From the IMG/VR virus record IMGVR_UViG_3300020119_000082, positions 1 through 32,348 of that record: DNA of 32,348 nucleotides; one strand, given 5' to 3'. The position numbers and the translations under genes are program-made. Positions 7,357 through 25,212 of the stretch are shown here, in pieces (the stretch's first letter is position 1; each line of letters opens with the position of its first letter). Source of the stretch: a virus. The notes beneath the pieces are model-generated. The model was not told the origin of the DNA. It made no database searches and saw only the letters and a program-made list of their open reading frames with translations.

Positions 7357-9066
7357 ATGAAACTCCGAGAACTGCTTCAACAAATGGGGGAAGTCCAAAA
7401 GAGAATAGGCTCATCTAAAGCCTATATCTGTGGAGGTACGCCTCGTGATCGTTATTTGAAGCACTTGGAAAACATTTCCGATTTGGATATTACAACCGGT
7501 GATAAGACCGTTGGATTTTTGTCCAGCGAATTTGGCGCCGAGTTAGCTAAGAAATACAACGTAACTCAGAGGAACCATGATGATGGACACAGCTCCATTT
7601 ACATCGGTTCTTTCAAGATGGATTTTTCTTCCAACTTTAATGTCCCAGGCATTGATGACATGTTGGTAAAGCAAGGTATTGCCCGTCCAACCGAGATGCA
7701 AAAAGAGATGTTTAGTAGGGATTTTACCTGCAACGCTCTTCTTCTATCTTTGGATTTAAAGAATGTAATTGATCCAACTCATAAGGGTTTTAAGGATCTG
7801 AATGATAGAGTAATTAGAACTTGTTTGAGCCCAGAAATTACCTTAACTACTAACAAGAATAGAGTTATTAGAGCTATCTATTTAGCTTCGAAGTTAGACT
7901 TCGATATTGATCCGGCTATTATTGATTATGTTTCTAAAAATCCACAATCTGTTAAAATCTCTACTGAAAAAGTAATGGCTGAAAAGCTTAATGAAGCTTT
8001 CAATAGGAACCCAGAAAGGGCAGCTTATTACATCAATAAGATGCACCTGTGGGATTACATTCCTATTACAGAAGTAGTTCAACCATACTATATGAAGGCT
8101 GTTAATATGCCACAAAAGAAGGCTTATTTTCAGGGAGGTGGCGGTGTCAACGAACCCACTCCAAAAGAGAAAAAGTACAAATCCGATCCGGCTATTGTTG
8201 TTCAACCACGTTTCAAGGAACCGTTTTATCGCAACTACGATATTTACGAAATTCCTGGGTTTGAGCACATTGGTCCTGGGGCAGGTTGGCACTCCCTACA
8301 AAATTATAAAAGCGTACAAGAGTTTCTAGAGGCCCGCCGAGAGCGACTCAAGCCCAAGTATGTAGCTGACGATTCATGGCAAGTGGATAGTGGTGCCAGG
8401 GTTAAAAAGAATCCTGACATGGCTGCTCGCGCTGCTTTATTGTCTAGAATTATAAAGATGGCTGGTGATGAAAACGACGGGCCTAATTTTGATTATGGTG
8501 ATAGTCCCTATACTGCTATGAGCGAAGGTAAGAAGATGAAAACTATTACCGATCATAAGCACAAGAGTCCCGGAGCTTTCTTTTCCGATGACCACGACAT
8601 CAATAATATTGATTTTCCAATTGATGAACAGATTGGTCCAAATCAATTTGGTTTTAATGAAGAAACTGTTACTGACCCATACTATTTAGGTCCAGAAGGC
8701 CCTCCGGGTGATATGGTTACTTTTCCAGGTGCCACTAATCTAGGAGACGAGAAAGTTTATCCATATACCGCAGAAATGGGTGGAGATACTATCCCTTATC
8801 CAGACAGAGAAGGTAAAAACATTAGTAACCTAGATTTTGGACGAGATTATGTTGATGATTTTAAGGATCATGGGGATTTTGATGATGAAACCTTAAAAAA
8901 ACTTACTGAAAAATATCTATCTCCAGCCCCAACCGCTGGCCTGTATGGTCTTCCAGATGGTGTAGATATGCCTGATGAAGATGTTGGAGATCCCAACGAT
9001 ATCAATCCAGATTATGGTACTCGTGGTCCGGAAAGCTTAATGTACGAGGATAAATGGAACATTTAA
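7357..9066 (+). CDS. CCA-adding/poly(A)-polymerase-type nucleotidyltransferase with acidic C-terminal extension
   Basis: A 569-aa protein. Residues 1-250 are a class II (bacterial-type) tRNA nucleotidyltransferase/poly(A) polymerase head and neck. GG26-27 with RD at 30-31 (CGGTPRDRYL) and D43-x-D45 (SDLDIT) form the nucleotide and metal site, and D89 (FKMDF) is the probable third carboxylate. RDFTCNALL at 121-129 matches the RRDFTINAL motif, and NRVIRAIYLASKLDF (168-182) matches the motif D helix. The usual Glu-Asp of motif D (EDxxR) is replaced by T165-N166, so nucleotide specificity may differ. The family adds 3' CCA or A tails to RNA. Residues 257-569 are not family-like: they open with YFQGGGGVNEPTP, shared with the protease-scaffold protein, then become acidic, Pro/Gly/Tyr-rich and disordered-looking. 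The ribosome site is weak. The enzyme family is solid; substrate and virion location are inference. Confidence 0.85.
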   Translation: MKLRELLQQMGEVQKRIGSSKAYICGGTPRDRYLKHLENISDLDITTGDKTVGFLSSEFGAELAKKYNVTQRNHDDGHSSIYIGSFKMDFSSNFNVPGIDDMLVKQGIARPTEMQKEMFSRDFTCNALLLSLDLKNVIDPTHKGFKDLNDRVIRTCLSPEITLTTNKNRVIRAIYLASKLDFDIDPAIIDYVSKNPQSVKISTEKVMAEKLNEAFNRNPERAAYYINKMHLWDYIPITEVVQPYYMKAVNMPQKKAYFQGGGGVNEPTPKEKKYKSDPAIVVQPRFKEPFYRNYDIYEIPGFEHIGPGAGWHSLQNYKSVQEFLEARRERLKPKYVADDSWQVDSGARVKKNPDMAARAALLSRIIKMAGDENDGPNFDYGDSPYTAMSEGKKMKTITDHKHKSPGAFFSDDHDINNIDFPIDEQIGPNQFGFNEETVTDPYYLGPEGPPGDMVTFPGATNLGDEKVYPYTAEMGGDTIPYPDREGKNISNLDFGRDYVDDFKDHGDFDDETLKKLTEKYLSPAPTAGLYGLPDGVDMPDEDVGDPNDINPDYGTRGPESLMYEDKWNI

Positions 9067-9119
9067 AAACAGCGGATATTACTACATATAAATGCATAAA
9101 GAGTGTTAGAGGTACCTAA

Positions 9120-10079
9120 ATGTCATTAGAATCAACAGCACAAGAGCTATTTGTCCTAGATCCTGCCATGGGTCCTCCAATGGCCGATGATGACGGCATG
9201 CAAATTATTCCTTTGCAAGTCGAAGAAGTTCCACATGAGCATCCTGCCGTTATGGAACCGCTTGAAGTTCACGATAAGCCAATGGAATTGGAAATCGTTA
9301 TGGAATTGCCAGGCGCTCCGCCAGGCACCAAAGATCCTGAGCCTGTTCTAGAAGTTGCTGAGCAACCACTAGAAGTTGAAGAGGATAAGGCCCAGGTTCA
9401 AGACGAAGACCCAGCCAAGGCTGCCAAAGAAGAAAAATGGAACTGGAGCAAGCGTGGTCCAACAGGATTCATTGCTTGGGTTAAAGAGCGTTGTGATGAC
9501 GTACCAAAGCACTCTGGTTACGATACCGCTGGCTTAGAAAGAGCCGTTGCTTATCTTGAAAGATTAGACAGCGAAGTTTCTAAGGCTATGAGAAACGATA
9601 CTGATGGTGAACTTGATGCTAATCAAATTGAGAAAGTTCGTTCCATCATCGATAATGGTATTGAACGTTTGCAAGATCGTCTTGATAAGGTAAAGCAAAG
9701 CAAGAAGAAGCCAAAGAAGAGCAAGAAGTCCGAAGCCGAAATGGAAGGACTTATCAAGGAAGCTCAGAAGATTACTGGCGTTCAAGGCATTTACATTGTT
9801 GTTCCGTTGCTCGCCTCTAGAATTGCTAGAGTTTGTATCAATGGTATGGTTTCTGCTGGACATGACATTGAAGATTTGTATGCAAGACAAGTTAAGAAGT
9901 ACAAGCTTAATGAGCGTGAACAAGCTGAAGTTATGCAGCTTCTAGCCGACATGGGCTATCAATTACGTCAAGACAGAGGCTTCATGCCAGATGAAGATGT
10001 AGATGTAGCTTCTAGCGACAATTTTGATTGGGCAGCTAACTACAATCCATCTGCTAATGTCTGGGGCAAGGATAGATAA
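9120..10079 (+). CDS. Hypothetical acidic/helical protein
   Basis: A 319-aa protein of unknown family. Residues 1-105 are acidic, Pro- and Met-rich and carry repeated PLEV motifs (47-50 and 83-86). Residues 107-192 look folded and helical (WNWSKRGPTGFIAWVKERCD, then coiled helices). A lysine-rich stretch follows (192-203, KKKPKKSKK), then a helical domain 207-285 beginning LIKEAQKITGVQGIYIVVP. A DE-rich tail ends DNFDWAANYNPSANVWG. The AGAGGT ribosome site sits 8 nt before the ATG. The stop overlaps the next start by one base (TAATG). The alternating acid and base blocks suggest a protein- or DNA-binding assembly factor, but this is not established. Confidence 0.75.
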   Translation: MSLESTAQELFVLDPAMGPPMADDDGMQIIPLQVEEVPHEHPAVMEPLEVHDKPMELEIVMELPGAPPGTKDPEPVLEVAEQPLEVEEDKAQVQDEDPAKAAKEEKWNWSKRGPTGFIAWVKERCDDVPKHSGYDTAGLERAVAYLERLDSEVSKAMRNDTDGELDANQIEKVRSIIDNGIERLQDRLDKVKQSKKKPKKSKKSEAEMEGLIKEAQKITGVQGIYIVVPLLASRIARVCINGMVSAGHDIEDLYARQVKKYKLNEREQAEVMQLLADMGYQLRQDRGFMPDEDVDVASSDNFDWAANYNPSANVWGKDR

Positions 10080-10735
10080 TGTCTAAATATACTAGACATC
10101 AATCAGTTGTTTCAAGACAATCTGATGAACATATCGGAGAAGATCATTGGCTCAAGCAGTTTCAAAAGACGCTGCAAAAGGGAGCTGTGCAACCTATAAA
10201 GCAACAATCTTTATTCGATCAAATTAATTCTATCATGAATGGTCAATCTAAGTATCCTTCTGTAGCGGCCGCTGTAGAAGATATGAAGGAGAGAAGCGGT
10301 TTAACTGCTTATCTAGACAAAATTAACAAAGCTTCGGAAACGAAAGATGCGCCTGTTGCCAAGAAGGCAGAGGCTTCCGACAATAATGATGTAATAGAAA
10401 AACAGGTAGACGGCACACCAATTGTAATTAAGAAGTGTCCTTCTATCAAAAAGACTTTTGAAAATTACATTGGTGACAGCAGAGGCAATCTGCCTCTTTC
10501 AGCTATCATTAGTCACGTCCAATCTATTCATAAAGGAGATGTCTCCGATGCTAAGGATTGGGATGATGAAAATTTGCTACGTTTCGTTAGCAGACTCAAC
10601 TTGGCTGAGAAGCAGAAAAATCCATCTCGCGATCTTGGAGAAATGAATCTCGGTAGACGTGATGTGGGCGCAGATTCAGAAATCGATCCATCTAACACCG
10701 ACGCTTTCAATGCCCTGACTCCTGCGAAGATATAA
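10079..10735 (+). CDS. Hypothetical protein
   Basis: A 218-aa protein of unknown family. A basic N-terminus (MSKYTRHQSVVSRQ) is followed by helix, a disordered Lys/Ala/Asp linker at about 85-105 (APVAKKAEASDNNDV), then a helical domain 106-185 with KKCPSIKKTFENYIGD and LSAIISHVQSIHKGDV. The tail is polar, with RRDVGADSEIDPSNTD. The start overlaps the previous stop by one base, with AAGGAT upstream. The last 29 nt overlap the end of the minus-strand HNH gene in opposite orientation. No function can be assigned; operon membership suggests a virion or packaging role. Confidence 0.7.
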   Translation: MSKYTRHQSVVSRQSDEHIGEDHWLKQFQKTLQKGAVQPIKQQSLFDQINSIMNGQSKYPSVAAAVEDMKERSGLTAYLDKINKASETKDAPVAKKAEASDNNDVIEKQVDGTPIVIKKCPSIKKTFENYIGDSRGNLPLSAIISHVQSIHKGDVSDAKDWDDENLLRFVSRLNLAEKQKNPSRDLGEMNLGRRDVGADSEIDPSNTDAFNALTPAKI

Positions 10736-11414
10736 TTTCATCTTTGCGAGAAAGCTTGCTACAGTTACAATTGTAGCACAGCACCTGTAATCCTAAATTG
10801 CTAGGATAATTATTTTTGATGAGCCATCTGTACATCCTAACCCCAGTATGGCACTTTAATTGACGACGTTGCTCTGCACCGTCGTCATTTTTATGATCGA
10901 TGGTTAGTCGTTCAATTCTATCTTCATTACATTCTGCACATTGGTTGCCGTAAGCTCCCATGACTTTCTTTTTGTCTCGGAGTGCGTACTTATCTTTGTA
11001 AGCAATGCTTTTGCTACAGTTGCAATTATAGCATAACACTTGATACCCATCACGCCGAATTGGGTTATTGTATAACCATTCATAGATATTATTGGTAAGT
11101 ACTTTGCGATGAGTGTTACCTCCACCAAGTTTATGATCTATTGTTAATTTGTAATAATCATCTTCACCACAAAAATTACACATATCACCATAGAAGTGAA
11201 TGATAGCGCTCTTTCGACTATGATACTTTGCAAGTTGTTTTTTGTTATAGTCTGGATCCGATTTGTGGTACTGTTTACCATAGTTACGAAAGCACAGAGT
11301 ACATATGTAATTGCTGCGCGGCTTGAGATAACTAAGCCAGTTTTCATCGGTTAACTCAACTCTACATTTGATGCATTGCTTTAGACTACGTTTTTTTTGT
11401 GAGGCCATATTCAT
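10707..11414 (-). CDS. HNH homing-type endonuclease with tandem HNH modules
   Basis: A 235-aa protein and the only minus-strand gene of the window. An N-terminal four-Cys finger (C14, C17, C38, C41) precedes two copies of one HNH-like module: residues 70-135 (C79, C82, LTIDHK with H94, C128, C131) and 152-220 (C159, C162, LTIDHK with H174, C213, C216). Both end in QVLCYNCNCSK. The family makes nicks or double-strand cuts and spreads as selfish DNA in phages; terminase and its flanks are common targets. On its own strand it has a GAGGA ribosome site 7 nt before the ATG. It overlaps the 3' end of the upstream plus-strand gene by 29 nt and ends just before the terminase ATG. A run of eight A bases early in the gene (11391-11398 on the plus strand as T) is a possible slippage site. 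Confidence 0.85.
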   Translation of the reverse strand: MNMASQKKRSLKQCIKCRVELTDENWLSYLKPRSNYICTLCFRNYGKQYHKSDPDYNKKQLAKYHSRKSAIIHFYGDMCNFCGEDDYYKLTIDHKLGGGNTHRKVLTNNIYEWLYNNPIRRDGYQVLCYNCNCSKSIAYKDKYALRDKKKVMGAYGNQCAECNEDRIERLTIDHKNDDGAEQRRQLKCHTGVRMYRWLIKNNYPSNLGLQVLCYNCNCSKLSRKDEIISSQESGH

Positions 11415-11434
11415 ACATATATCCTCATTTTAGT

Positions 11435-13321
11435 ATGAATAATCAAAGTGATAAGGATTTATTCCAGAAGCTTAAGAAAGATTTACTTAATTTAGATCCT
11501 GTTTGGTTTGTAGAGAACTATCTTACACTAGATGGTAAACCATTTAGACTAAGAGGAAATGGGTATAAACCTTTTGCAGAGGTATATCGTTATAGCGGTA
11601 TCAAGGCGCTAGAGCCAAATTCAAAACCATTAATCATTGTCAAGGGTCGTCAGGTAGGAGCTACTACGATGGCCAGCGCTCTTGAAATGTATTTCATGGG
11701 ATGTGGTTTATTTGGTAACGGTGAGAAGCCGCCCATTCGTATCATTCATGCATTCCCTCAATTGGAATTAGCTGCCGCTTATTCTAAGACCAAACTCAAC
11801 CAAATCATAAATACTTCCATTCCAGTTCCTAATGAGGACTTAAAGAAAATTAGTAAACCAAAGTCACATATGCAGGCTTTGTTGGATAATACAACCGCCA
11901 CTAGCGACTCTTTGACCTTCAAACAATTTCAAGGTGGAAACCACTTATGGATTGAGTCGGTAGGTTTAGACGGAGACCGTATCATGGGTCGTACTGCTGA
12001 CGCTTTGTTCTTTGACGAAGTTCAGAAGACTACCAGTATGGCTATCGGTAACTCGCTTAAAGTTCTTACTACTGCCAAGTACGGTGAGCCTGGTAAAGGT
12101 GTCCAAGTTTATTTTGGAACGCCAAGAAGAAAGGGCTCTGACTTCCACAAGATGTGGCAAGTTTCCTCACAACAATACTACTACCTTGGCTGCGAGAATT
12201 GCGATAAGCATTTCCCACTTTACACTCCCGGCTCCGATGACTGGAAGCAAATTTGGATTCACGGCTATGTCGTCAAGTGCCCTCACTGTGGGAAAGAGCA
12301 AAACAAACTAGAAGCCGCTGAACGTGGCAAGTGGGTAGCTCTCAAGGATCCTGATGATCCTGATTGCCAGATGGTTGGATTCCACCTCAATCAGCTTTAC
12401 ATGCCGATGTTTACCCGTGAGGCTATCGATGCTGAAATGCCGGGCAAGCATCCAATCAATACCGAACGTGTCTTTATGAACGAAGTATTGGGAGAGTTTT
12501 TTCAAGGTGATTCTAGCCCAATCACCCCAGAGGAAATCAAGGAACTTTGCAGGGATGATAGGAAATTTAGCGCCAGAATCATTCCAGTCAAAAACACTAT
12601 GCAACCACAAATAGTCGTTCTGGGAATCGACTACGGTGCTCGTGCTGACTTGGAGCAATTAGCTAATCCAGAAAGAGTCACTACAGGTGGCCAGTCCTAC
12701 AGTACGGCTGTTGTCTTGTCTGCCAAGGGTCCAAATTTGTTAAATATCGAATTTGCTACTAAGTTCAAGCGTAATGACATAGAAAGCAAAAAAGGTATTA
12801 TTGATCAAATTATGAGGCAATACAGTATTCAATTGGCCATTGGAGACATTGGTTACTCTAATGACTTCTCTGCTTTATTGCATAATGTTTATGGAGATCG
12901 ATATTTAGTTTCTCGTGCTCACAACAAGGTAAATGGTCATATAAAATTTACCATGGATGCCTTCCCCAAGGAACTTGTTTTTGAAAGAGACCATTATATT
13001 GGCGAACTATACGAACAAATGAAAAAGGGAATGATTAAGTTCCCATTTGGAGATTATGAGAAGATTGCATGGTTAATTGACCACTGTTGCAGTATGGAAA
13101 TCAAGCCATCTATTTCTAGAATGGGAGGAGATCCAACCGTCCATTATGTTAAAGGTAGCACTCCAAACGACGGTTTTATGGCTTTACTCAATGCCTATTT
13201 GGCTTATAAGTTCATAATTACTAGAGGTTTTACCAATAATAATCCTATTCTTCAAGGTCAAAACTTCGCTCAACGTAACAAACCTTTAGTAACTTCTGGC
13301 TATATCTCTCGTAAATTCTAA
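11435..13321 (+). CDS. terL: Terminase large subunit (GpA-like ATPase/nuclease)
   Basis: The DNA-packaging motor. Taking the ATG at 11435 gives 628 aa. Walker A is KGRQVGATT (residues 70-78) and Walker B is ADALFFDEVQ with D195-E196. A coupling-type segment YFGTPRRKGSDFHKMW follows. A zinc ribbon (C253-x2-C256 and C282-x2-C285), followed by W-V-A-L, is typical of the lambda GpA family. The RNase H-like nuclease domain shows D399 (VVLGIDYG), D471 (IGDIGYSND) and D579 (TPNDGFMALLNAY). The protein uses ATP to drive DNA through the portal and cuts the concatemer. A GTG at 11399 would add 12 residues but overlaps the HNH gene; neither start has a clear ribosome site, which is unusual here and may reflect the HNH insertion. 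All key residues are present, so it should be functional. Confidence 0.95.
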   Translation: MNNQSDKDLFQKLKKDLLNLDPVWFVENYLTLDGKPFRLRGNGYKPFAEVYRYSGIKALEPNSKPLIIVKGRQVGATTMASALEMYFMGCGLFGNGEKPPIRIIHAFPQLELAAAYSKTKLNQIINTSIPVPNEDLKKISKPKSHMQALLDNTTATSDSLTFKQFQGGNHLWIESVGLDGDRIMGRTADALFFDEVQKTTSMAIGNSLKVLTTAKYGEPGKGVQVYFGTPRRKGSDFHKMWQVSSQQYYYLGCENCDKHFPLYTPGSDDWKQIWIHGYVVKCPHCGKEQNKLEAAERGKWVALKDPDDPDCQMVGFHLNQLYMPMFTREAIDAEMPGKHPINTERVFMNEVLGEFFQGDSSPITPEEIKELCRDDRKFSARIIPVKNTMQPQIVVLGIDYGARADLEQLANPERVTTGGQSYSTAVVLSAKGPNLLNIEFATKFKRNDIESKKGIIDQIMRQYSIQLAIGDIGYSNDFSALLHNVYGDRYLVSRAHNKVNGHIKFTMDAFPKELVFERDHYIGELYEQMKKGMIKFPFGDYEKIAWLIDHCCSMEIKPSISRMGGDPTVHYVKGSTPNDGFMALLNAYLAYKFIITRGFTNNNPILQGQNFAQRNKPLVTSGYISRKF

Positions 13322-13330
13322 ACACTCAGA

Positions 13331-13341
13331 TATATTATTAG
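13331..13341 (+). promoter_or_regulatory. Candidate promoter element (TATATTATTAG)
   Basis: The 59-nt gap between terminase and portal contains TATATTATTAG, which shares TATATT with the elements at 309 and 932. It could give the portal its own transcript. No -35 box is evident and no terminator lies in the gap. This call rests on recurrence only. Confidence 0.2.
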
Positions 13342-13380
13342 TTGTGTATAGTAGAGGGTTGTGGAAATAAATGAGGATGC

Positions 13381-15255
13381 ATGCCAATCAACAGGTCTCA
13401 AAAAACATGGGTAGGACCCTCTAAATCTGATCAATATTTATCTGGAAGATCAGATGTCCCGCAAGTTAGCTCTCTAATGTCTCGTAGTGTTTCTGACGTG
13501 AGGAGACAACTAATTGCTGGTGAAGTATACCAAGGGCTATTTAGAGATGGCTCTGGACCAACTACCAAAGAGGATATGTCAACACCCAATGGGCGCGTTG
13601 TTTCTTCGGTTGGTGTTCATAAATATGCACAAGTAGTTAGCTCTGGAGGCGGAGCCTTTCGTGGAGGTTCTGGAGATACTGTCAAGCAAACTCCTGAAGT
13701 TTACTCCCCGCTGTGGTTAAATTCCAATCTCAATCTTCCACGTGACCGTGCTACCATTAATGCTTGGTGCCGTAGTTTTTATGCGCTGAATCCTTTCGTT
13801 CATAATGCTATCAACTTGCACAGTACGTACCCAATTAGTAAGTTGAATATCAAGTGTCCAAACAAGGACATCGAAAAGTTCTTCAATGACATGATTGAAG
13901 AAATTGATTTGATGAACATTTGCGTGCAAATCGCTCAAGAATACTGGCTCCTTGGTGAAGCCTTCGTTTATGCCGAACTAGACGAAAGCCGAGGCAAGTG
14001 GAGTCGTTTGCTTATTCAAAACCCAGACTACATGATTGTTAAACGTACCGTTGTTGCCAACGAGCCAATTATCATGTTGCGTCCTGATGAAAATTTGAAG
14101 AGAATCATCTTCTCCAATAGACCAACTGATATTGAGCAGCGCAAGCAACTAAACGCTCACATCATTGACTCGGTTAAGCGTGGTGAAAATATCCCGCTAG
14201 ATAACTTTCACGTTTCTCATTTAGCTCGTAGAATCAGCCCTTACGAAATTAGAGGAACTGGACTTCCAGTTTGTATTTTCCGTCAATTGATGCTATTTGA
14301 CAAGCTTCGTGAATCAAAGTATGCACAAGCAGATAATATGATTAATCCGCTTACTTTGGTTAAGATTGGTACTGATTCTGCTGATGGATTGCATCCAACT
14401 TTTGCTGACTTGGAAGCTTGGAGAAACATTTTCGAAGAAGCGCAATACGACAAAGACTTCAAAATTTTCACTCATGCTGGAGTTGCCGTAGAGCGCGTGG
14501 GCTATGGTCAAGGCATCTACGATATTTCCGGTGACATTACTCAAATCATCAAGGAAATCTATGTTGGTTTGCAAGTTCCTCCAGTTTTGATGGACGGTGG
14601 AGCCGATACCACATATGCCAACGGTGGTGTAGCTTTGGACGTTCTTCGTCAGAGATACATGCAGTTTCGTAATATGATGTCTCAATGGTTGAAGCGTAAA
14701 ATTTTTGCTCCAATCTCTAAGATTCAGGGATTCTACGATTACTCGGGCGGTGAGAAGCAACTTATCGTTCCAGAAGTCGATTGGAACCACATGTCTTTGT
14801 TTGACGCCGGAGATTACATCAACGGATTGGTCACATTGACTCAGGGTGAAGATGCTGCCAAGCGCGCTTCTTTGCATACCCTTTATCGTTCTTTGGGTCT
14901 TGAATTTGAAGATGAAATTCGTAAGATGCGTAAGGAAGCCATTCAGCTTGCCATTAATAAAAAAGAAAAGGCAGCTCTTGAGGCTATGGATTTGAATGCT
15001 TTAAGGTCTTTGGATGAGGAAGATGAAATTCCAGAGCCAGAAGGTCAGCCAGGCCAAGGTGGCGCTGGCGGAGCCCCTCCATTACCAGGAGAAGTTCCAG
15101 GTGGAGCCCCACCTCCAGGAGGCGGTGGCCTACCAGGATTGGATATGGGAGCCCCTCCACCAGGCGGTCCTCCAGGCGGAGCACCACCACCTCCTCCACC
15201 TCCTCCACCTTCAGGTGGTGGCGGACCACCTCCGGGGCCACCTCCTCCAGCATAA
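13381..15255 (+). CDS. Portal protein
   Basis: A 624-aa protein placed directly after terminase. Residues about 105-545 carry the portal core: NAWCRSFYALNPFVHNAIN, the wing/clip region with YWLLGEAFVYAE, the loop around VSHLARRISPYEIRGTGLP, and the long stem-like helix LMLFDKLRESKYAQADNMI. The portal is a dodecamer at one capsid vertex through which DNA enters and leaves, and it docks the terminase. The first 100 residues are Ser/Gly-rich and probably flexible. The C-terminal 75 residues (about 548-624) are almost entirely Pro/Gly/Ala and end in a polyproline run, an unusual tail for a portal. The ribosome site is GAGG, 6 nt before the ATG. A 59-nt gap with a TATATT element precedes it. Confidence 0.9.
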   Translation: MPINRSQKTWVGPSKSDQYLSGRSDVPQVSSLMSRSVSDVRRQLIAGEVYQGLFRDGSGPTTKEDMSTPNGRVVSSVGVHKYAQVVSSGGGAFRGGSGDTVKQTPEVYSPLWLNSNLNLPRDRATINAWCRSFYALNPFVHNAINLHSTYPISKLNIKCPNKDIEKFFNDMIEEIDLMNICVQIAQEYWLLGEAFVYAELDESRGKWSRLLIQNPDYMIVKRTVVANEPIIMLRPDENLKRIIFSNRPTDIEQRKQLNAHIIDSVKRGENIPLDNFHVSHLARRISPYEIRGTGLPVCIFRQLMLFDKLRESKYAQADNMINPLTLVKIGTDSADGLHPTFADLEAWRNIFEEAQYDKDFKIFTHAGVAVERVGYGQGIYDISGDITQIIKEIYVGLQVPPVLMDGGADTTYANGGVALDVLRQRYMQFRNMMSQWLKRKIFAPISKIQGFYDYSGGEKQLIVPEVDWNHMSLFDAGDYINGLVTLTQGEDAAKRASLHTLYRSLGLEFEDEIRKMRKEAIQLAINKKEKAALEAMDLNALRSLDEEDEIPEPEGQPGQGGAGGAPPLPGEVPGGAPPPGGGGLPGLDMGAPPPGGPPGGAPPPPPPPPPSGGGGPPPGPPPPA

Positions 15256-15320
15256 TCCCGCACTTACGTATGGATAATTCAGTATTTATTTACTGATTCT
15301 ACATAGGCGAAGGGTTTATC

Positions 15321-16844
15321 ATGCAGAAAACTGCTCAAAAAAGAAGCGTTCTCAATAAGTTAAGGGAGATGACCAACGTTAGTGGCATTGCCGCTGAGAA
15401 GTTCTTCAATCCTGAATTCCAGAGAGTTATGGAAAGCTTACGCGAGAAGGACGACCAAATTAGGTCACTTGTGGCTGGCGAGTCTATTGGCATGGGCGAT
15501 CCTGGCAATGATTCTATTGCTTTGAAGGATCTTCTCAAATCATCCAAGTCTAATCTAAATCGCAGAGAGTATATGTCTGCTATTGCTGATCTTGGAAGAT
15601 TTCATAAGAAGCTTTTCGATGTGGTTCAACAAATTTCTAAGCTCAGCTTTGATGTCGATCAAGTTCATCATGAATTCCTTTTTAAGGATTTAGATGACGA
15701 GAAGAAGCAACATCTACACGATTTGAAAAGTCGTTTTGCTCACAATCATCGTATGGAGATGATCAAAGAAGCCAGTGTTATGGACTTCTTTTACAATATC
15801 GGTACCAAGCGTGGTCGTGCACTTGCTGCTTGGGAAAAGAGATATCCAAAGCAAGTTGGTAAGCTTAAGAAGGATACTGCCATGTTGCAGGGCCGTTCAG
15901 AAGCTTTACTACAGCAAGTCTTATCTGCTTTGAAAGAAATGGCTTCTGCCCGCTCTACTCGTAATGTAGACTCTTACACCAAGGCCGCTGACAAGATTAC
16001 TAAGGCTTATCAAAACTATGATAAGAGCTTCCGCGATTATTATACTACTAACGTTAAAGGCTTCTTAGAAAAAGTTGAGTTAATTTCTCCAACTGAGAAG
16101 ATGGATAAGAAAGACACTAAGCAAATGGGTGGTCAAGAAGTTCCTATTGGTGCGCCTGATACCATTAAAGATCCTGAAAAGCAGTTTGGTGTACCGCCAA
16201 CTGTGGATGATCCTGGACTTCAAGGTGGCGCAGTGCCAGGTACCGCTCGTCCTGCAACTGATAATATTGGACCTCATCCTGCAATTCTTGAACAACAGAG
16301 ACAAGAGGGAGAGAGCGAGCCTATTCCATTGGTTCAGAGAAAAGCGCCAAATGTTCCGTCTTTGGATATGCCAACCAATAGAGTTGGTCCTCCATCTGGA
16401 ATGAGTGATCCTGCGCTATCTCCTACTATGTTATCTCCTGGTCAGCTTGGTCAAGCAGGCCCAGCTATCCCATCGGCTCCACGAGTTCCATCTATTTCTC
16501 AACCAGGTTATGGTTCTGGTGTAATGCTTCCATCCAATCCACCATCTCGTCACACCCAGCCATATGGCTCTGCATTTATGGGAAGTCCTGCACCAGGCAC
16601 TCAAGCTGGCGTTGCTCCTCCAGCCAATGCACCTCCTGCTGAATTTAAGAGTGATCAAGTGGCCCGTGAAATGGGATACAACGTAGAAGCTCATAAGCAA
16701 TTCTACAATGCATTAGAAAGTTTGGCAGGCGAGGATCCAATCGTTCTTGCATCTTTTATTGCTAAGTACGCACGTAAGATTCAGTCAACCGACCTTAAGA
16801 CATCTATTGAGTTACTACAAATCGTCAAACGAATCAAGGGGTAA
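15321..16844 (+). CDS. Coiled-coil protein with long Pro/Gly linker, probable head/neck component
   Basis: A 507-aa protein of unknown family. Residues 1-250 are helical and heptad-rich, for example VMESLREKDDQIRSLV and FHKKLFDVVQQISKL. Residues about 255-445 are a Pro/Gly/Ser-rich disordered linker. The last 60 residues form a compact helical cap (VAREMGYNVEAHKQFYNALE, then IVLASFIAKYARKIQ). An AAGGG ribosome site precedes the ATG after a 65-nt gap that contains a 6-bp inverted repeat (TCAGTA/TACTGA, 279-296 of kb 15). It lies directly after the portal, where neck, scaffold or core proteins often sit; that role is inferred. There are no catalytic motifs. Confidence 0.75.
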   Translation: MQKTAQKRSVLNKLREMTNVSGIAAEKFFNPEFQRVMESLREKDDQIRSLVAGESIGMGDPGNDSIALKDLLKSSKSNLNRREYMSAIADLGRFHKKLFDVVQQISKLSFDVDQVHHEFLFKDLDDEKKQHLHDLKSRFAHNHRMEMIKEASVMDFFYNIGTKRGRALAAWEKRYPKQVGKLKKDTAMLQGRSEALLQQVLSALKEMASARSTRNVDSYTKAADKITKAYQNYDKSFRDYYTTNVKGFLEKVELISPTEKMDKKDTKQMGGQEVPIGAPDTIKDPEKQFGVPPTVDDPGLQGGAVPGTARPATDNIGPHPAILEQQRQEGESEPIPLVQRKAPNVPSLDMPTNRVGPPSGMSDPALSPTMLSPGQLGQAGPAIPSAPRVPSISQPGYGSGVMLPSNPPSRHTQPYGSAFMGSPAPGTQAGVAPPANAPPAEFKSDQVAREMGYNVEAHKQFYNALESLAGEDPIVLASFIAKYARKIQSTDLKTSIELLQIVKRIKG

Positions 16845-16849
16845 CTACT

Positions 16850-17980
16850 GTGGGTAATGAGGTAGAAAAGGTTAAAACCGATGTTTCTTTGACTGAGCTT
16901 GTCAATTCATTTGCACGAGCCTGGCAGTCTTTGCTTAGTAGAAAGCCAAGCAAAGAACAATTAGCCATGTTCATTGCTCAGAATTCGCTTGAAACTGGCA
17001 ATAGAAAAAGCATGTTCAATTACAACATTGGTAATATCATAGCTGGAAATTCTGGTTATGATTACTTTTTAGGTAATGATACTAATAGGGGCAAACCTAT
17101 CGTACAGCATTTCAGGGCTTATAAAACACTTGATGAGGGCGTTCTAGATTATTTGAAACTTCTTCATAATGGATATCCTCAAGCTTTTGCCGCCGCTAGT
17201 ACGGGTGATCCTAAAAACTATGCTCATTCCTTACTCGAAAATCCAAAGCGTCAATACTATGATGCAACCGTAGAAAAGAACTATGCTATTGGTATGGGTA
17301 GAGGGTATAATCAATATATGAAGTCACCTGAATTTGATCAGGCATATAGAAGTGCAGTTGGTGGCGAAGCACCTCCAAAGGAACCTGATAATATGGTAGC
17401 AACAAAAGACAAAGATGACTTCATTAGTAGATACTTAAAGAAGCACAAAAATCAGGGAGACGTCTATCAACAGATAGGACAGTCATCCACTCCAAGCCAG
17501 TCTGCGCCATCTGGAGCGGCTCCATCCGGGAACATGCCTGCTAATATCAGTAATCTTTTGAGTGGATTTTTACAGCACGTTACCGCTTCTGAAAAACTAA
17601 ATAAGAAACTATACGAACAATTCTTGCCAATTAACCATATGGTTATTCGTGTAACTGCCAATACTACAACAGATGCTGTCGAGTTTTCTAGGATACTCTG
17701 TTCGGCACTTAAAGAAGAACTAATGGCTGACGCCTTTACCCACACAGATGGTAATGTGGTGGAAGTTGAGTGTTCTATCCGTGGACCAGGACAGGCTTGT
17801 TTTAATACTACCCAACAACTTACTAACGCTGTAGCAGATGCTTTTAAACAAGCTACCGCTAAAATAGGAGGAGTTGCGGTTAATACCCAATTCTTTACCA
17901 ATAAGACATCATCTTATCAGCAAATCAATTACAAATTTGCCGCCAATCAACACAGGAAGTTCCTGCTAAAATTTGTATAA
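16850..17980 (+). CDS. Virion-type peptidoglycan hydrolase (glucosaminidase/lysozyme-like)
   Basis: A 376-aa protein starting at GTG, with an AAGGGG ribosome site 8 nt upstream. Residues 13-155 resemble the glucosaminidase (FlgJ/LytG-like) lysozyme fold. AMFIAQNSLETGNRKSMFN carries the catalytic-type Glu48 in the L-E-T/S-G motif, followed by NYNIGNI (N-x-x-x-G-N-I), FRAYKTLDEGVLDYLKLL and a late NPKRQYYDATVEKNYA helix. These enzymes cut the sugar backbone of peptidoglycan. There is no signal peptide, and it sits among virion genes, so local wall opening during DNA entry fits better than host lysis. A Ser/Pro/Ala linker (about 200-230) leads to an unrecognised C-terminal alpha/beta domain (240-376). 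The 5-nt spacing from the preceding gene indicates one transcript. Confidence 0.78.
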   Translation: MGNEVEKVKTDVSLTELVNSFARAWQSLLSRKPSKEQLAMFIAQNSLETGNRKSMFNYNIGNIIAGNSGYDYFLGNDTNRGKPIVQHFRAYKTLDEGVLDYLKLLHNGYPQAFAAASTGDPKNYAHSLLENPKRQYYDATVEKNYAIGMGRGYNQYMKSPEFDQAYRSAVGGEAPPKEPDNMVATKDKDDFISRYLKKHKNQGDVYQQIGQSSTPSQSAPSGAAPSGNMPANISNLLSGFLQHVTASEKLNKKLYEQFLPINHMVIRVTANTTTDAVEFSRILCSALKEELMADAFTHTDGNVVEVECSIRGPGQACFNTTQQLTNAVADAFKQATAKIGGVAVNTQFFTNKTSSYQQINYKFAANQHRKFLLKFV

Positions 17981-17989
17981 GGAAACAAA

Positions 17990-18415
17990 ATGGTAACACT
18001 AGAAGAAGTTTTACAGACGGTGCAGGAATGCAATGACGGAGGCCGTACCAAGACTTTAGCCGAATTCATTGCCACTATCTTCAAAGATAAGTTCATCGAA
18101 ATTTATTTGGGCGATTCATATGAAGAAGTAAGTATGGAACAAACTTCACAGGCATATCCTGCTGTTTTCTGTGGAAAAGTAGTTGCAGCATATAAAGAAT
18201 GTTTAGTTCTTAATTCTGTTTATGTTGAAAATAAGAAACTAGTCCTTGGCAATTTAGTTTTTGTAAGTGAAAGAGCTATTAGAGGACTTAATGAAATTGA
18301 TGGTAAGGGAACTATGGAAGAAATGTTCCTGAGAAGCTCTGAGTCTATAGAAATCAAAAGACACTTTATTGACGGGTATCCTCTAAAACCACGTCCAAGA
18401 ACTCCAAAGAAATAA
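17990..18415 (+). CDS. Small beta-rich protein, possible Sm-like fold
   Basis: A 141-aa protein. The N-terminal 30 residues are helical. Residues 34-102 alternate like a five-stranded small barrel: FIEIYLGDSYEEV, then CGKVVAAYKECLVLNSVYVE, then KLVLGNLVFVSERAIRGL. The order (helix, strand, bent strand ending G-x-V-x-x-x-x-x-x-L-V-L, then L-G-x-x-x-x-x-x-x-x-I) follows the Sm1/Sm2 pattern of LSm/Hfq-type proteins, with an insertion after strand 1. That fold assignment is my pattern reading, not an established homology. An alternative is a small beta-barrel virion adaptor. The ribosome site AAGGA is good. The gene is 9 nt after the hydrolase gene and 6 nt before the next gene. Confidence 0.7.
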   Translation: MVTLEEVLQTVQECNDGGRTKTLAEFIATIFKDKFIEIYLGDSYEEVSMEQTSQAYPAVFCGKVVAAYKECLVLNSVYVENKKLVLGNLVFVSERAIRGLNEIDGKGTMEEMFLRSSESIEIKRHFIDGYPLKPRPRTPKK

Positions 18416-18421
18416 TGTCCT

Positions 18422-19072
18422 ATGCACGATACCGAATCACTTCTCAAACTAGCTTCCGAATTTGAAGCAGGCTGTGTCAACAGCTTGGAGAAGCTTGCGC
18501 GCAAGCGCAAGTCTCCAGTTGAGGAGTATCGTCGTGATAATGACAATGCTGAGGAAGAAAAGGTTATTGATCTAACTGGTGCTACCGATTTTTCTTATTC
18601 CGCTATTATGCGTGAAATGAGACAAGAAGCTGATAAAGAACAGGTTAGATTATTTTTAACTATGTTCAAGAAAGAGTTTGATAATGCTGTGAAGCAGAAG
18701 TTACAAAAGCCAGAGAAAGTAGCTTTACAAAATTCTTTAATTAGATTCAACAAGAGACATAAAGTTAAGTGTAAGAAGAAATTAATCAAGAACGCCGCTG
18801 TTTCTGAGTTAGGAGATCCCACTCTAGTAGGCAGATATTTAGCTGATATCGTTAGATTCACTATCAACAAAATTCCACTTGAAAGAAGAGCTAAGGCATT
18901 AGAGAGTCTACGTAAGAAGTTTTACGCTTTTAATGCAGATGAAATTTCTCAGAAGGTACTTCCTCCAACAGCAGCAATTGGACAGTCTATTACTTTCGTT
19001 AAGCACGTATTGATTAATCAAAATCCATCATATATTCGTGAAGTTCTTAATAACCTGGCGGGTCATTTATGA
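18422..19072 (+). CDS. Hypothetical basic helical protein
   Basis: A 216-aa protein of unknown family. An acidic segment (VEEYRRDNDNAEEEKVIDL) follows a short N-terminal helix, then basic helices run to the end. These include QKPEKVALQNSLIRFNKR, KVKCKKKLIKNAA, a segment LVGRYLADIVRFTINKIP and the final YIREVLNNLAGHL. There are no enzymatic motifs. The start lacks a visible ribosome site and lies 6 nt after the previous stop, so coupling is likely. The stop overlaps the phosphatase start as ATGA. The net basic helical character could suit nucleic-acid or capsid binding (inference). Confidence 0.7.
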   Translation: MHDTESLLKLASEFEAGCVNSLEKLARKRKSPVEEYRRDNDNAEEEKVIDLTGATDFSYSAIMREMRQEADKEQVRLFLTMFKKEFDNAVKQKLQKPEKVALQNSLIRFNKRHKVKCKKKLIKNAAVSELGDPTLVGRYLADIVRFTINKIPLERRAKALESLRKKFYAFNADEISQKVLPPTAAIGQSITFVKHVLINQNPSYIREVLNNLAGHL

Positions 19073-19845
19073 TACACAGGTTAAGAAAAGTTACTGACGA
19101 ATTGTATCGAGGCAGTGCGCCATCTCCAAAAGATGTGGCTTGGTTAAAAGAAAATCTAGGAATCAAAAAGATAGTTAGCTTAGATGAATTAGCTGGTCAA
19201 AGAATAAATAGGGCTTGCAAATTATTAGGTATCAAACACATTATGTGTCCCATTGATATACATAATGCTAAATCAGACCTTATTAAATTTCTAAGTCATG
19301 ATTTGAAAAAGCTTCTTCTAGAAGACGGTCCTACTTATGTTCATTGTGCTGAGGGTAAAGATAGAACTGGATTAGCAGTTGCTTTAGTACAATGTAAATA
19401 TCTTGGTAAAGATCCAGAAGAAGCTATTGAAGAAGCAAAAGCCCTTGGTTTTGGCTTAGATGTACCAGAAAAGCCAATCCATCTTTTTGAGAAGGTCATA
19501 CGCTCTTGTAAGCCTGCAAAGGATACTAACAGTGCTGATATAGTTTCTAACGAACGAGAGTACATTTCGGATAATCGAGATACCTTTTTGGATGAGGGGC
19601 ATCAGGGTTCCTTTGCCCCGTACCTAAATCAAACCAAGCAGAATCCGATGGATGCTCTCTATAATTTCGTAATGGAACAGAATCCTACTCGTGAGAATTA
19701 CCATCATGGTAAGCCAATAAAAGAGTATGATCCTGAGGCAGAAGAAATTCCAGAAGGTGTCCCAATGGTTGGCGTTTACGACAACGAGGCGGGCGGCCGA
19801 GGCTTCGGGCCAGCAGAAAATAACGGTGGATTTATCTATGATTAA
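19069..19845 (+). CDS. Tyrosine/dual-specificity protein phosphatase
   Basis: A 258-aa protein. Residues 1-145 are a cysteine-dependent phosphatase of the tyrosine/dual-specificity fold. It opens with ELYRGSAPSPKDVAWLKENLGIKKIVSLD, typical of the family. The P-loop YVHCAEGKDRTG holds the CX5R signature with nucleophile C93 and R99, and D63 (CPIDIH), 30 residues upstream, is a good general acid. Such enzymes remove phosphate from Tyr or Ser/Thr, or from phosphoinositides or nucleotides in some branches. Residues about 150-258 are an acidic, Pro/Gly/Tyr-rich extension with no known domain, reminiscent of the nucleotidyltransferase tail. Its ATG overlaps the preceding stop by 4 nt and its end overlaps the next gene by 8 nt. 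All catalytic residues are present. Substrate and virion location are unknown. Confidence 0.85.
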   Translation: MIHRLRKVTDELYRGSAPSPKDVAWLKENLGIKKIVSLDELAGQRINRACKLLGIKHIMCPIDIHNAKSDLIKFLSHDLKKLLLEDGPTYVHCAEGKDRTGLAVALVQCKYLGKDPEEAIEEAKALGFGLDVPEKPIHLFEKVIRSCKPAKDTNSADIVSNEREYISDNRDTFLDEGHQGSFAPYLNQTKQNPMDALYNFVMEQNPTRENYHHGKPIKEYDPEAEEIPEGVPMVGVYDNEAGGRGFGPAENNGGFIYD

Positions 19846-20476
19846 GAAGGCGTACGCAGTACAAATGACCTATGATGTGACTGATGCTGAAAAGAATCAG
19901 GCAGAAAAGGCACTTTTGTATTTTGAACATACTTCTAAGTCCCTTCAATTAGCTTCTTACCATTTAGATATCATGAATACTCCTTTTAAGGATAACCCAG
20001 AAGTGGACCCTAAGGAAGTTATGAAGGCTAGGGCCGCTATCAGAAGGTTTCGTGACAAGTCCATTGAGAACTTTAACGAATTCAAGCGCCAGGCTTTTCA
20101 GTGCGTTAATGTAATGCACGTTTTTGAATCTGATACTCAAACTTTGAAACTAATGAAATCCTTCATTTCATCTATTGATGAACTTGAGGTTAAAGTAAAT
20201 AAATTCTCAGAGCTATTTGCTGATCTTGAGGCTAAGTCGTTTCCTCAGGATGTTGTCAAGTCCCTGGAAGATATCCAGCAACAGTGTGAGGATATCGAAG
20301 AGATTATTGATGAAAGAATCAAAAATCATATTCAAACCAATATCTTAGCTACTAGCTGGGTAGATAATGTCAGTAATGACTTGCAGGTTAAGATTCAAGA
20401 AAAAACCCCACTGATTGTTGATCTTTTCAATCAAAGGCAGGACCAACTCAACGACATGATAAAGGAGAGAACCTAA
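19838..20476 (+). CDS. Hypothetical helical/coiled-coil protein
   Basis: A 212-aa protein starting MIKKAYAVQMTYDVTD. I chose the ATG at 19838 because GGTGGA lies 8 nt upstream and the frame further upstream encodes only unrelated sequence overlapping the phosphatase gene. The protein is almost all helix: residues 15-45, 60-95, then heptad-like stretches such as LMKSFISSIDELEVKVNKFS and VVKSLEDIQQQCEDIEEII, and a final amphipathic segment. It overlaps the phosphatase stop by 8 nt. There are no recognisable catalytic motifs. It could be a chaperone, scaffold or connector component, from position only. Confidence 0.75.
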   Translation: MIKKAYAVQMTYDVTDAEKNQAEKALLYFEHTSKSLQLASYHLDIMNTPFKDNPEVDPKEVMKARAAIRRFRDKSIENFNEFKRQAFQCVNVMHVFESDTQTLKLMKSFISSIDELEVKVNKFSELFADLEAKSFPQDVVKSLEDIQQQCEDIEEIIDERIKNHIQTNILATSWVDNVSNDLQVKIQEKTPLIVDLFNQRQDQLNDMIKERT

Positions 20477-20591
20477 CAACCAGGCAACTAAACTGGTGGT
20501 TATAATGGGAATATTAAAATATATGATTGAAGTTACTGCCAGAAATGGAAAATTTGTGGTAATAATCCATTATAATTAGTATCCATTGAGA

Positions 20592-20608
20592 TTCTCCCAA
20601 TTGGAGAG
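20592..20608 (+). promoter_or_regulatory. Possible Shine-Dalgarno-sequestering hairpin
   Basis: TCTCC at 593-597 of kb 20 pairs with GGAGA at 603-607 across a CAATT loop, burying the ribosome site of the 51-aa gene that starts at 20614. The stem is only 5-6 bp, so it may modulate rather than block translation. The 137-nt gap before the gene also contains two TATAAT hexamers (20501-20506 and 20571-20576), neither with a good -35 box. The gap shows nothing else recognisable. Confidence 0.3.
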
Positions 20609-20613
20609 CATAG

Positions 20614-20769
20614 ATGTTCATAAAACGCGGTGACGGAAAAATATTATCAGTTGTTGAAACTGAAGAGATGACTGAAGAGCAGAAAAAGAATGCTCGCGAT
20701 CTTGCTAATAAGAACGTTAAGCAGTCCGTCTCAACCGATGCTTCCATTGATAAGAAGCCACAGGAATAA
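20614..20769 (+). CDS. Small hypothetical protein (51 aa)
   Basis: A short gene of 51 codons plus TAA. It starts MFIKRGDGKILSVVETEEMT and continues with a charged helix (EEQKKNARDLANKNVKQS) and a polar tail. The N-terminal F-I-K-R-G-D-G-K-I-L-S-V-V looks like a beta hairpin. A GGAGAG ribosome site lies 6 nt upstream of the ATG, and the stop is 3 nt before the protease-scaffold start, a spacing typical of this operon. No family is recognised. Its position just before a protease-scaffold gene suggests a small head-assembly factor (inference). Confidence 0.7.
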   Translation: MFIKRGDGKILSVVETEEMTEEQKKNARDLANKNVKQSVSTDASIDKKPQE

Positions 20770-20772
20770 CTT

Positions 20773-23700
20773 ATGTCATTTGTTAAACTAGGCGAAGCAA
20801 CTGAAATTAAACTAGAGAACGCAGATTCCTGTGTCCCTCAAGTGAACGCAGAGATTTTGGAGAACTTTAGAAAGTTTGCACAGAACCTAAAGAAGATTGC
20901 TCCAAAAGCTGAAGACTTCTTATATTTTTCTGCTGTTATGATGCATGCCGCTGAGGCTTCAGCATTAAACGATGATGGAACTCCTAGATTAAATGTAAAA
21001 GGCGAATCCGTCCAAGTAGGATGGGATAAAAGTGGAAACACTTGGCGCTGGATGAGCAATGACCCAAGTATTAAGCCTTACAAGAATTCCAATGGAGATA
21101 TCTTTCCAGAAGAAGAACTCGTTAAAGCATATAAGAAGTGGGTCGGAAAGCCTCTTTGCATAGATCATAAGTCCTCCTCGGTAGATCATGTAAGAGGCTT
21201 TATTGTTGATACCTATTATGATCGCAATCTCAAGAGAGTAATTGCTCTATGCGCCTTAGACAAGGCTGGGTATCAACAACTAGCAAGACAAGTTGCTACT
21301 GGAGTTTCTAACTGTGTGTCCATGGGTACCGCAGTTGGTCGCGCAATCTGTTCTGATTGTGCCCGAGTAGCTAGAACCGAAGCTGATTTCTGTGACCATA
21401 TGCGCAGGAAGACTTGCTACGGTGAAATTAACGTAGACTTAAACCCAATTGAATTATCCATTGTAGTTAACGGTGCCGATCCAAAGGCTAACATCAAGCA
21501 TATCATTGCTGCCGCTAACACGCTAAATGCTTATGTTGAAAACAAGCAACAAGAGCTTAGCAAGTTGGCAGACAAATTTACAGCCAATTTCAACTTCGAT
21601 GTTGGTGGATCAGATCAAGGCAAAGTTACTAACGTAACTGTTAACGCTTCAGATTTAGAGACATTCCGTAAGGATGTTGACAAAGCTATTGCAGATTTCC
21701 AGAGTTTGCAATCTTCATTAAAAGAAGAAAATATGCAAGGACATGGTAATGATCTTGCATCTAATCAATTGTTGGGGGATGAAACTCCGACATCTGATTC
21801 TGGATTGGCTCCCCCACACGCAAGATATGCATCCTATGAAGTAGGAGCAGATGCTATCGAAACTCTTCGAGAGACTATGAAGGTCATCGAAGCCAAGTTG
21901 GGCCAAACGAAAGAAAGCTTGGAAAAGTTAGCAAAAACTTCTACAAAAACACAAGAGGAAAATATGTCAGGTACAAACATCAATAAGCAGGGTTATTACC
22001 AAGGTGCAGGTGGCGTTAACGAGCCGACCCCAGGACAAGCTAAGTATCCGAAAGATCCTCTAAACGAACAACTTCGTGAAAAAGAGGATAAGCAGATGGT
22101 CGGTCAATCTCCATTCCCAGGTGTGGGATCAGTTGACGGCATGCACCCATCTCCGGATTCTGCTGAAACATCTGATGAGTTAGAGCGCAAGAAGTTGCTC
22201 GCTCGTGCAGAAGCAGAAGAGAGAGCCCAGAAGCGTCAAGCAATTGTCGAAGCTGCTAAGAATGCTCTTAATCAAAAGACCGCATACTTTCAGGGTGGTG
22301 GTGGCGTAAACGAGCCAACCCCAGGTAAGCAAAAGTATCCAGTTGACAAACTTGAGTATACCCTTCGTGAGAAGGAAGATAAGCACATGGTTGGTCAGAA
22401 GCCATTCCCAGGTGTTGGTCCAGTTGATGGTCTTCATCCATCTCCTTCCTCCGCTGAGACTTCTGATGAACTAAAGCGTAAGGAAATGCTACGTAGAGCC
22501 AGTGCTCTATCTGCTAAGTTTGCTTATGCAACCAATACAGATGGAAGCCGCAACAAGGCTGACAGTGCTTGGGAAGTTTATCGTGGCGACAAGTTAATCC
22601 TTACCGCTTCTGTACAAGATTTATCTGGCGGTCAAGTTGATAAGCTTTATCCAGGAATTGCTACCACCGAATTCGGTGCCAGCTTACTTGAGAAAGTAAA
22701 GACTCATGGAGTACAGAAAGTTGCATCTCTTGTAAAGAGTGCACAAGCCGCTCCTCCAGCCCCACCCGGTGGCGGTGAGTCAGCTCCTCCTACAGCCGAT
22801 TCTTCTGCTCCTCCAGCGGGCGGAGCTGATGCTGGTCCTCCAGCCGAAGATAAGGGCAAGTCTGGTGATCCAAAGGCCGCTGCTGGCGAACTAGCTGAGA
22901 AGGTCAGAGACCTAAGCTCAGATTTGGTTGAAGCAGTTAGAGCATTGACTGGTGAGCAAGCAGAAATGGGAGAAATGGAAGGCGCAGCACCTCCAGCAGG
23001 TGGTCCAGAAATGGGCGCAGCCGCTTCCTTTAGTACCAAGACTCTCAACACTATCAGAAAAGACCTCAATGGTGCACTTACCCAGGCCATGAAGGAAGCA
23101 GTTGCTACCTTAAATGACCACGCACAAGAATTGGATATGATCTCTGGTCTATACGACAAGGGTGCTGTATCTGGTAATAACCAAGAGTTCGTTGGAACGA
23201 TTGTTGAGGATGCGCTAACCGAAGCCAAGACTGCTGTTGCAGATGGATTCAAGTTGATGACCGCTTTCGTCAAGTACGCTCGTGGAACTAAGGCTATTGT
23301 CAAGCGCGCAGAAATTGAACGTGAACTTGAGGCACTAGCTGAAGGAGAAACTATGACAGGCGAACAAGACGCCAACAACGGCGATGATTTAATGGACATG
23401 ATTGCCGACACCAACGCAGACTTGGATGCCGTCAATGAAATGCTTAGTGATGATAACGATCACTTCGGAACAGGTGAACCACACTTCGAATCTATGGAAG
23501 GCGAAGATGGTCTAGCTCTTATGAGCAATGATGCTACCCCATTGAAGGCAGATGATGCTAACGATGTTAAGGTTGACGTCAAGCCAGAGTTGCTAGATAA
23601 GCTTGGTCCACTAGGAACTACAGCTTCTTTCGAGACTAAGGCTGGCCGTGCTGCTCTAAGAGCTAAGCTAGCTGCTGACGCACTTGGCAAGGAAGAGGAT

Positions 23701-24417: not shown

Positions 24418-25212
24418 ATGTCTAACAAAAGTGTATCAGATTTTGTCGCTGCAACAATGGATGCAGTTCTAAAGAGCGAAGCCCACAAGTCATTGTTCGG
24501 CACGCAATACAAGTATGCATCCGATGATCATGATGGTCATGATCACAAGCCAGGCGACTCTTGCTCGGCAGATGATCAGGATGCTAAGAAGAAGAAGGAA
24601 GATTCTTCTAGCGCAGATGATCAGGATGCAAAGAAGAAGATGCCACCTTGGCTAAAAGACAAGAGCGACTCTTCTTATGCAGATGATCAAGATGCCAAGA
24701 AGAAGAAGGAAGACTCTTCAGATGCAGATGATGACAACGATGCTCGTCGTAAGGCCAAGAAAGAGGAATCTTCAAGCTCTAGCTCTGATTCTTCAAGTGC
24801 TGATGATGACAACGATGCTCGCAAAGCAAAGAAGGAAGAATCTTCTAGCAGTTCCAGCGACAGCTCCAAGGCTGACGACATGGGAGCTTCCGCAGCTTTC
24901 GATGTAGCTATCGACAGCTTGCTAACTGCTTCCGCAGCTCTTGATTCTGTTGGTATGGAGAAGTCCGCCGCATTTAGCTTGAAGCTAGCTTCTTTGGTTG
25001 TTGAAGCCAAGAAGAAGGAAAAGGATTCTAAGAAAGATTCTAAGAAGTCTTCTAAGAGTGATTCTAATGACGCCCGTGGTAAGAAGAAGGACTCTAAGGA
25101 TTCCAAGGATTCCAAGGATTCTAAGAAGAGCGATTCTAACTCCGCCAAGGACAAGAAGAGCGACAAGAAGGATTCTTCCAAGGACTCCAAAAAGTCTTCT
25201 TCCAAGAAGTAA
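24418..25212 (+). CDS. Lys/Asp/Ser-rich repeat protein with central helical hairpin
   Basis: A 264-aa protein of extreme composition. Residues 1-35 form a normal-looking helix. A His/Asp patch follows (SDDHDGHDHKPGDS), then residues 50-153 carry imperfect repeats built on ADDQDAKKKKEDSS or ADDDNDARKAKKEE with Ser runs. Residues 157-197 form the only hydrophobic unit, a helix-Gly-helix hairpin (IDSLLTASAALDSVGMEKSA) shared with neighbouring genes. Residues 198-264 are nearly all Lys, Asp and Ser (KDSKDSKDSKK). Two strong ribosome-site cores (AGGA, GAGGA) precede the ATG. Such a polyampholyte could bind DNA, cations or capsid, but no family is recognised. It directly follows the protease-scaffold gene. 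Confidence 0.75.
   Translation: MSNKSVSDFVAATMDAVLKSEAHKSLFGTQYKYASDDHDGHDHKPGDSCSADDQDAKKKKEDSSSADDQDAKKKMPPWLKDKSDSSYADDQDAKKKKEDSSDADDDNDARRKAKKEESSSSSSDSSSADDDNDARKAKKEESSSSSSDSSKADDMGASAAFDVAIDSLLTASAALDSVGMEKSAAFSLKLASLVVEAKKKEKDSKKDSKKSSKSDSNDARGKKKDSKDSKDSKDSKKSDSNSAKDKKSDKKDSSKDSKKSSSKK
24568..24888 (+). repeat. Degenerate tandem coding repeat (ADDxDA units)
   Basis: Five full units beginning with the codons for Ala-Asp-Asp start at 24568, 24613, 24679, 24724 and 24799, and a sixth, diverged one at 24871. Spacing is 45, 66, 45, 75 and 72 nt, all in frame. Copies 1 and 2 are nearly identical at the DNA level. This is the pattern left by slippage or unequal exchange in a coding repeat. 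Confidence 0.8.

Follow-up and report, generated by a model that had tools for sequence, protein, structure and literature searches.

The scaffold of phage lambda, Nu3, is an in-frame nested product of the protease gene C. Nested protease and scaffold genes with an in-frame internal start are also known in Mu-like phages (PMC4378225), and short conserved N-terminal capsid targeting sequences are known from the internal proteins and Alt of phage T4, as is an identical 15-residue N-terminus on the diverged head proteins gp53 and gp54 of phage SPN3US (PMC5694885). We analyzed IMGVR_UViG_3300020119_000082, a 32,348-base virus record in IMG/VR and hereafter the window, whose protease-scaffold gene (P2) is apparently laid out like those of lambda (C/Nu3) and Mu, in which the scaffold has its own in-frame Shine-Dalgarno (SD) and start within the protease gene. 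P2 differs from these in that it is far larger (1205 and 808 aa for the two products), in a probable second nested start, and in a leader peptide that is duplicated in two units and common to another gene, P1C. As with the T4 sequences, a short N-terminal peptide would be common to different head-cluster proteins, but there are only two carriers here, one of them the scaffold itself. SPN3US gp53 and gp54 likewise have an identical N-terminal leader and are diverged elsewhere, although those two are paralogs whereas P1C and P2 have no detectable similarity beyond the leader. In Bacillus phage G, gp19 is homologous to the P2 protease domain (HMM match, E 2.2e-38) and gp21 to the C-terminus of the scaffold (P2 profile columns 1088-1145, E 1.2e-7); unlike in P2, these are separate genes, and gp21 has no leader. 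P1C was not detected in phage G and was not found in isolated phages, by a search that was partly without a positive control.

A sequence-only reading of the window had reported an identical 14-residue peptide in a nucleotidyltransferase and in the protease-scaffold protein, with a third version in the latter, and both the positions and the peptides were exact. In the 7357-9066 product AYFQGGGGVNEPTP takes up residues 256-269 (positions 8122-8163), and in P2, the 20773-24390 product, it recurs at residues 504-517 (22282-22323), while YYQGAGGVNEPTP is found at P2 residues 408-420 (21994-22032). The same count as before, 9 of 14 codons, was obtained for the differences between the identical copies. 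Each family has its own flanks, which together with the differing codons excludes fresh DNA copying or gene conversion, and the earlier view that the peptide is kept at the protein level was borne out. A tblastn search of the record with the protease-scaffold protein also matched 8107-8304 (E 4.9e-8), and hhalign of the P2-unit profile with the enzyme-side family profile aligned exactly 25 columns (E 1.9e-14); given these two values, the sharing is not due to chance.

In these profiles AYFQGGGGVNEPTP is the core of a leader of about 25 residues, AYFQGGGGVNEPTPxxxKYxxD, which is longer than the 14-mer first noted and is conserved across IMG/VR giant-phage contigs. When the leader columns were removed from both families, hhalign found no similarity left (probability <1%). 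Homology past the leader was rejected on this ground, and the looser resemblance once suggested between PGF...GPGAGWHS in the enzyme product and FPGVG...GLHPS in the 74-aa unit of P2 has no statistical support. By the same comparison, what the two families have in common is a short linear peptide and not a domain. AlphaFold confidence for the leader is low in both proteins, mostly <50. In the fused enzyme pLDDT is 80-96 at residues 1-250 and <50 at residues 254-300, and in P2 it is <50 at residues 391-422 and 502-519, the sites of both leader copies. The proposed position of each copy between a folded region and disorder thus holds for the enzyme copy, but both P2 copies are inside disordered linkers.

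Table 1. Features of the P1C and P2 genes in the window
Feature	Position	Strand	Basis or remark
Nucleotidyltransferase domain, class II CCA-adding/poly(A) polymerase head and neck, residues 1-255	7357..8121	+	PF01743, PHROG 2244, PDB matches
P1C region, acidic, mostly disordered, fused to the enzyme in the window	8122..9066	+	pLDDT mostly <60
Leader copy in P1C, AYFQGGGGVNEPTPKEKKYKSD	8122..8187	+	Identical 14-mer is 8122-8163
Protease-scaffold gene P2, 1205 aa	20773..24390	+	PHROG 18299, IMG/VR relatives
Prohead protease domain, residues 33-267	20869..21573	+	Phage G gp19 HMM match, invariant His132 and Ser183
Internal Shine-Dalgarno GAGGAA	21955..21960	+	Codon conservation across relatives
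Inferred nested scaffold ORF, 808 aa, begins MSGTNINKQGYYQGAGG	21964..24390	+	Met398 and SD conservation
Leader copy 1 in scaffold, GYYQGAGGVNEPTPGQAKYPKD	21991..22056	+	
Leader copy 2 in scaffold, AYFQGGGGVNEPTPGKQKYPVD	22282..22347	+	Head of second ~74-aa unit
Second internal Shine-Dalgarno AAGGAG	23342..23347	+	
Probable second nested ORF, 345 aa from Met861	23353..24390	+	Spans part homologous to phage G gp21

The distribution of the leader is narrow. In 2.9 million viral contigs the motif Y[FY]QG[GA]GGVNEP matched at least 118 stretches, and among the matches listed each motif-bearing ORF is P2 or P1C. With an HMM of the P2 unit, 18 contigs of 120-481 kb were found to hold P2 with one or two copies (P2 lies beyond the reach of one 121-kb contig) and most to hold one P1C copy as well; no other gene matched in these contigs, and the leader was on no replication or RNA-polymerase gene. 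Bacterial and archaeal genomes totalling 257 Gb gave a single match, in a 383-kb contig from a Chitinophagales MAG, and the matching gene is a homologue of P2. Unrelated proteins with the motif, the possibility that the sequence-only reading had singled out for checking, were absent from the viral matches listed, the 18 contigs and the 257 Gb of prokaryotic genomes. A general cargo tag is excluded by the finding of at most two leader genes per genome in the 18 large contigs, where P1C alone, and not several different internal proteins, has the leader besides the scaffold. A short QGTEEP form of the leader occurs in P1C of G002, G005, G006 and G014 and co-occurs in P2 and P1C of G005, G006 and G014, with G002 and G015 breaking the match; this pairing of variants (Fisher p about 0.016, counted by hand and uncorrected for relatedness) is only suggestive.

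Like the nested genes of other phages, P2 combines an N-terminal prohead protease domain with a conserved in-frame internal start that has its own SD. It matches the head maturation protease family PHROG 18299 with an E of 4.8e-14, its relatives are found in dozens of IMG/VR viral contigs, several of 200-480 kb, and a fold search with the P2 model in the PDB gave no significant match. LAGLIDADG-type inteins were seen within the protease domain of three relatives (L018:10001-13132, L026:9998-13135 and L148:5377-8448 on the minus strand). Elsewhere in the region, window 24418-25212 encodes a low-complexity protein with repeated ADDQDAKKK/ADDDNDARK, and the DDNDA codon pattern was found in six large contigs solely just downstream of P2. 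The head-gene cluster also includes a dual-specificity/tyrosine phosphatase-like gene with a long disordered tail (window 19069-19845; PF03162, E 1.6e-8).

The internal start lies ahead of the first P2 leader, in a variable linker that contains EENMSG and is encoded by GAGGAAAAYATG. The Glu-Glu pair here is written GAGGAA at 54/54 sites, whereas elsewhere in these ORFs only 57/517 Glu-Glu pairs are spelled this way. In 63/67 relatives (94%) codon 395 is GAG, while the median share of GAG across 29 conserved Glu columns is 24%, which makes nested translation of the scaffold very likely. Codon 396 is GAA in 56/56, and its synonymous entropy is the lowest among the 415 conserved columns; the column control used for both codons allows for relatedness. 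Met398 is present in 69/69 relatives with an anti-SD energy of -5 kcal/mol or lower in all, whereas for 22 other conserved Met columns (Met861 aside) the median SD energy is no better than -3.3. The gene starts of the window itself have a median of -5.3. In the window alone the SD energy of Met398 ranks 12 of 247 internal ATGs and is not the best, so it is conservation across relatives, and not the energy rank, that marks Met398 as a start. We infer that translation apparently also begins at Met398 and that its product is the scaffold. With this start, the leader would be N-terminal in both carriers, as MS(x)nNKx[AG]Y[FY]QG, and a short N-terminal peptide of the T4 type would be present on the stand-alone P1C and on the scaffold.

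A second nested start is probably present at codon 861 in most relatives and would give a third, 345-aa C-terminal product. Met861 is found in 49/66 relatives with a median anti-SD energy of -8.5, mostly in the context GAAGGAGANxxxATG. On our reading P2 would give rise to the full-length fusion of protease and scaffold, to the 808-aa scaffold and, in the majority of relatives, to the 345-aa product as well.

We examined the second carrier of the leader and the enzyme to which it is joined in the window. The nucleotidyltransferase scores 44.9 bits against PF01743 (E 1.8e-11, cut-off 23), matches the tRNA nucleotidyltransferase family PHROG 2244 (E 2.1e-14) and CCA-adding enzymes and poly(A) polymerases in the PDB, and the motifs GGTPRD, DLD and SRDFTCNAL, read directly, are intact; a score above the curated cut-off and catalytic motifs place it in class II. 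It has the catalytic head and neck of CCA-adding enzymes and poly(A) polymerases, with GGxxRD, DxD and RDFTxNAL-like motifs, but at about 255 aa it lacks their usual C-terminal body and tail and is fused to P1C. The curated equivalog for a full-length CCA-adding enzyme is not reached (NF009814, 64.6 bits vs 290). In about 25 loci P1C stands alone directly downstream of the nucleotidyltransferase gene, overlapping its end, and begins MSxNKxAYFQGGGG, usually with an SD, so that the leader is 6-9 residues from the start codon. Enzyme and P1C are fused in frame in about 12 loci, some of them near-duplicates and the window among them, which keep the conserved catalytic motifs; in the window the leader is internal and not N-terminal. 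In most relatives the nucleotidyltransferase is a separate gene without the leader. The earlier assignment of the tag to the nucleotidyltransferase was therefore mistaken, the leader being the N-terminus of P1C.

The P1C family shows some variation. P1C is present without the leader in L055, L059 and G007, and in G009 P1C is seemingly absent while both P2 leader copies are kept. An internal repeat, NYDLY..GPGxGWHxxQNYKSVxEF plus GPNFDYGxGxYxxMxKYKSVxDF, lies at window 8233-8500 and is clearest in relatives. On one 446-kb contig (L184:2497, reverse-strand numbering) an in-frame stop falls in the middle of P1C, after which frame and homology resume. An ORF that by eye resembles an HNH homing endonuclease lies between the enzyme and P1C genes at L177:600-1212, and a Cys-rich ORF of similar look precedes the terminase gene in the window (10707-11414, minus strand); Pfam gave no clear family for either.

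Our best explanation, to which we give a probability of about 0.55, is that the leader is a disordered N-terminal docking peptide common to the nested scaffold and P1C, two head-cluster proteins. The scaffold would be translated in frame from Met398, and one stretch would be C-terminal in the protease fusion while also forming the start of the free scaffold. P1C, encoded directly after a CCA/poly(A)-type nucleotidyltransferase or, in the lineage of the window, fused to it, would join the same prohead core as the protease-scaffold and the free scaffold by docking through a common partner, for which the scaffold itself, the capsid protein and the portal are candidates. Where P1C is fused to it, the enzyme would be carried along. 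This is favored by the confinement of the leader to two families, by stand-alone P1C starting with it behind an SD, by the constraint on the internal SD and start in P2, by the separate gp19 and gp21 of phage G, and by the precedents of Mu-like nested genes, T4 leaders and SPN3US N-termini. It is weakened by the loss of the leader from P1C in three relatives, by the intact P2 copies where P1C is seemingly missing, by the single client besides the scaffold and by the leader-free scaffold homologue of phage G. The P2 leaders kept in G009 suggest that the first role of the leader is probably in the scaffold, with P1C as a client. Of the head-assembly tag first proposed, the docking role is still the best reading, the leader marking only the scaffold and one other head-cluster protein, but its owner is P1C and not the enzyme.

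A sub-case of this explanation that differs on the enzyme, and that we hold tentatively, is that P1C joins the scaffold via the leader as an accessory scaffold or core protein, the fusion being incidental and the enzyme acting on RNA in the cytoplasm. The leader-free enzyme of most relatives, upstream of P1C in the loci examined, is consistent with this, as are the conserved C-terminus and repeats that P1C has of its own; the retention of the fusion with its catalytic motifs in a dozen or so loci argues instead that it is tolerated or useful. A bolder version, which we consider quite unlikely, has the scaffold leader reused as a packaging tag resembling the T4 capsid targeting sequences, by which the lineage of the window would bring an active nucleotidyltransferase into the prohead and deliver it with the DNA into the next host. 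Binding of the leader to a non-structural partner unrelated to head assembly, such as a replication compartment, a chaperone or a regulatory protease, is improbable: in the 18 large contigs it is on head-cluster genes only.

The leader could also mainly be where the prohead protease recognizes and cuts its substrates, separating protease from scaffold, one unit from the other and, in the fused gene product, the enzyme from P1C; we regard this as unlikely. Its location in disordered linkers at module boundaries, in the fused genes and in P2, would suit such a role, cuts there would restore the separate proteins of relatives, and processing of N-terminal leaders and disordered linkers is common among head proteases (PMC5694885). 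Against this, the leader is already next to the start codon in stand-alone P1C, where a boundary cut would be pointless unless it trimmed the leader, and nested translation would already separate the scaffold from the protease. The known sites of giant-phage head proteases are short xxE motifs, unlike 25 conserved residues. Nothing points to the maturation-cleavage site that the sequence-only reading had offered, as the SAE/SAD tripeptides of the 74-aa unit vary or are missing among relatives. Finally, GAGGAAAAYATG might be conserved through protein-level constraint on EENMS and not for translation initiation, which is the least probable of these alternatives. The peptide EENMS is itself conserved, but the constraint falls on synonymous third positions, the flanks of EENMS are variable, and in the divergent relative L074, where the peptide is different (AAGGAGGAGCAAATAATG), an SD is still present, though another one.

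The leader is a real and highly specific feature, and its parts resemble known kinds. What is new is the combination of a probable nested scaffold in a giant-phage protease gene, a leader shared with one partner and an occasional nucleotidyltransferase fusion. P2 provides a sequence-level scaffold candidate for a giant-phage group that is little known and whose head genes relate it to phage G. With the leader defined and a single partner protein named, the identity of the scaffold, its nested translation and the recruitment of cargo become testable in an isolate.
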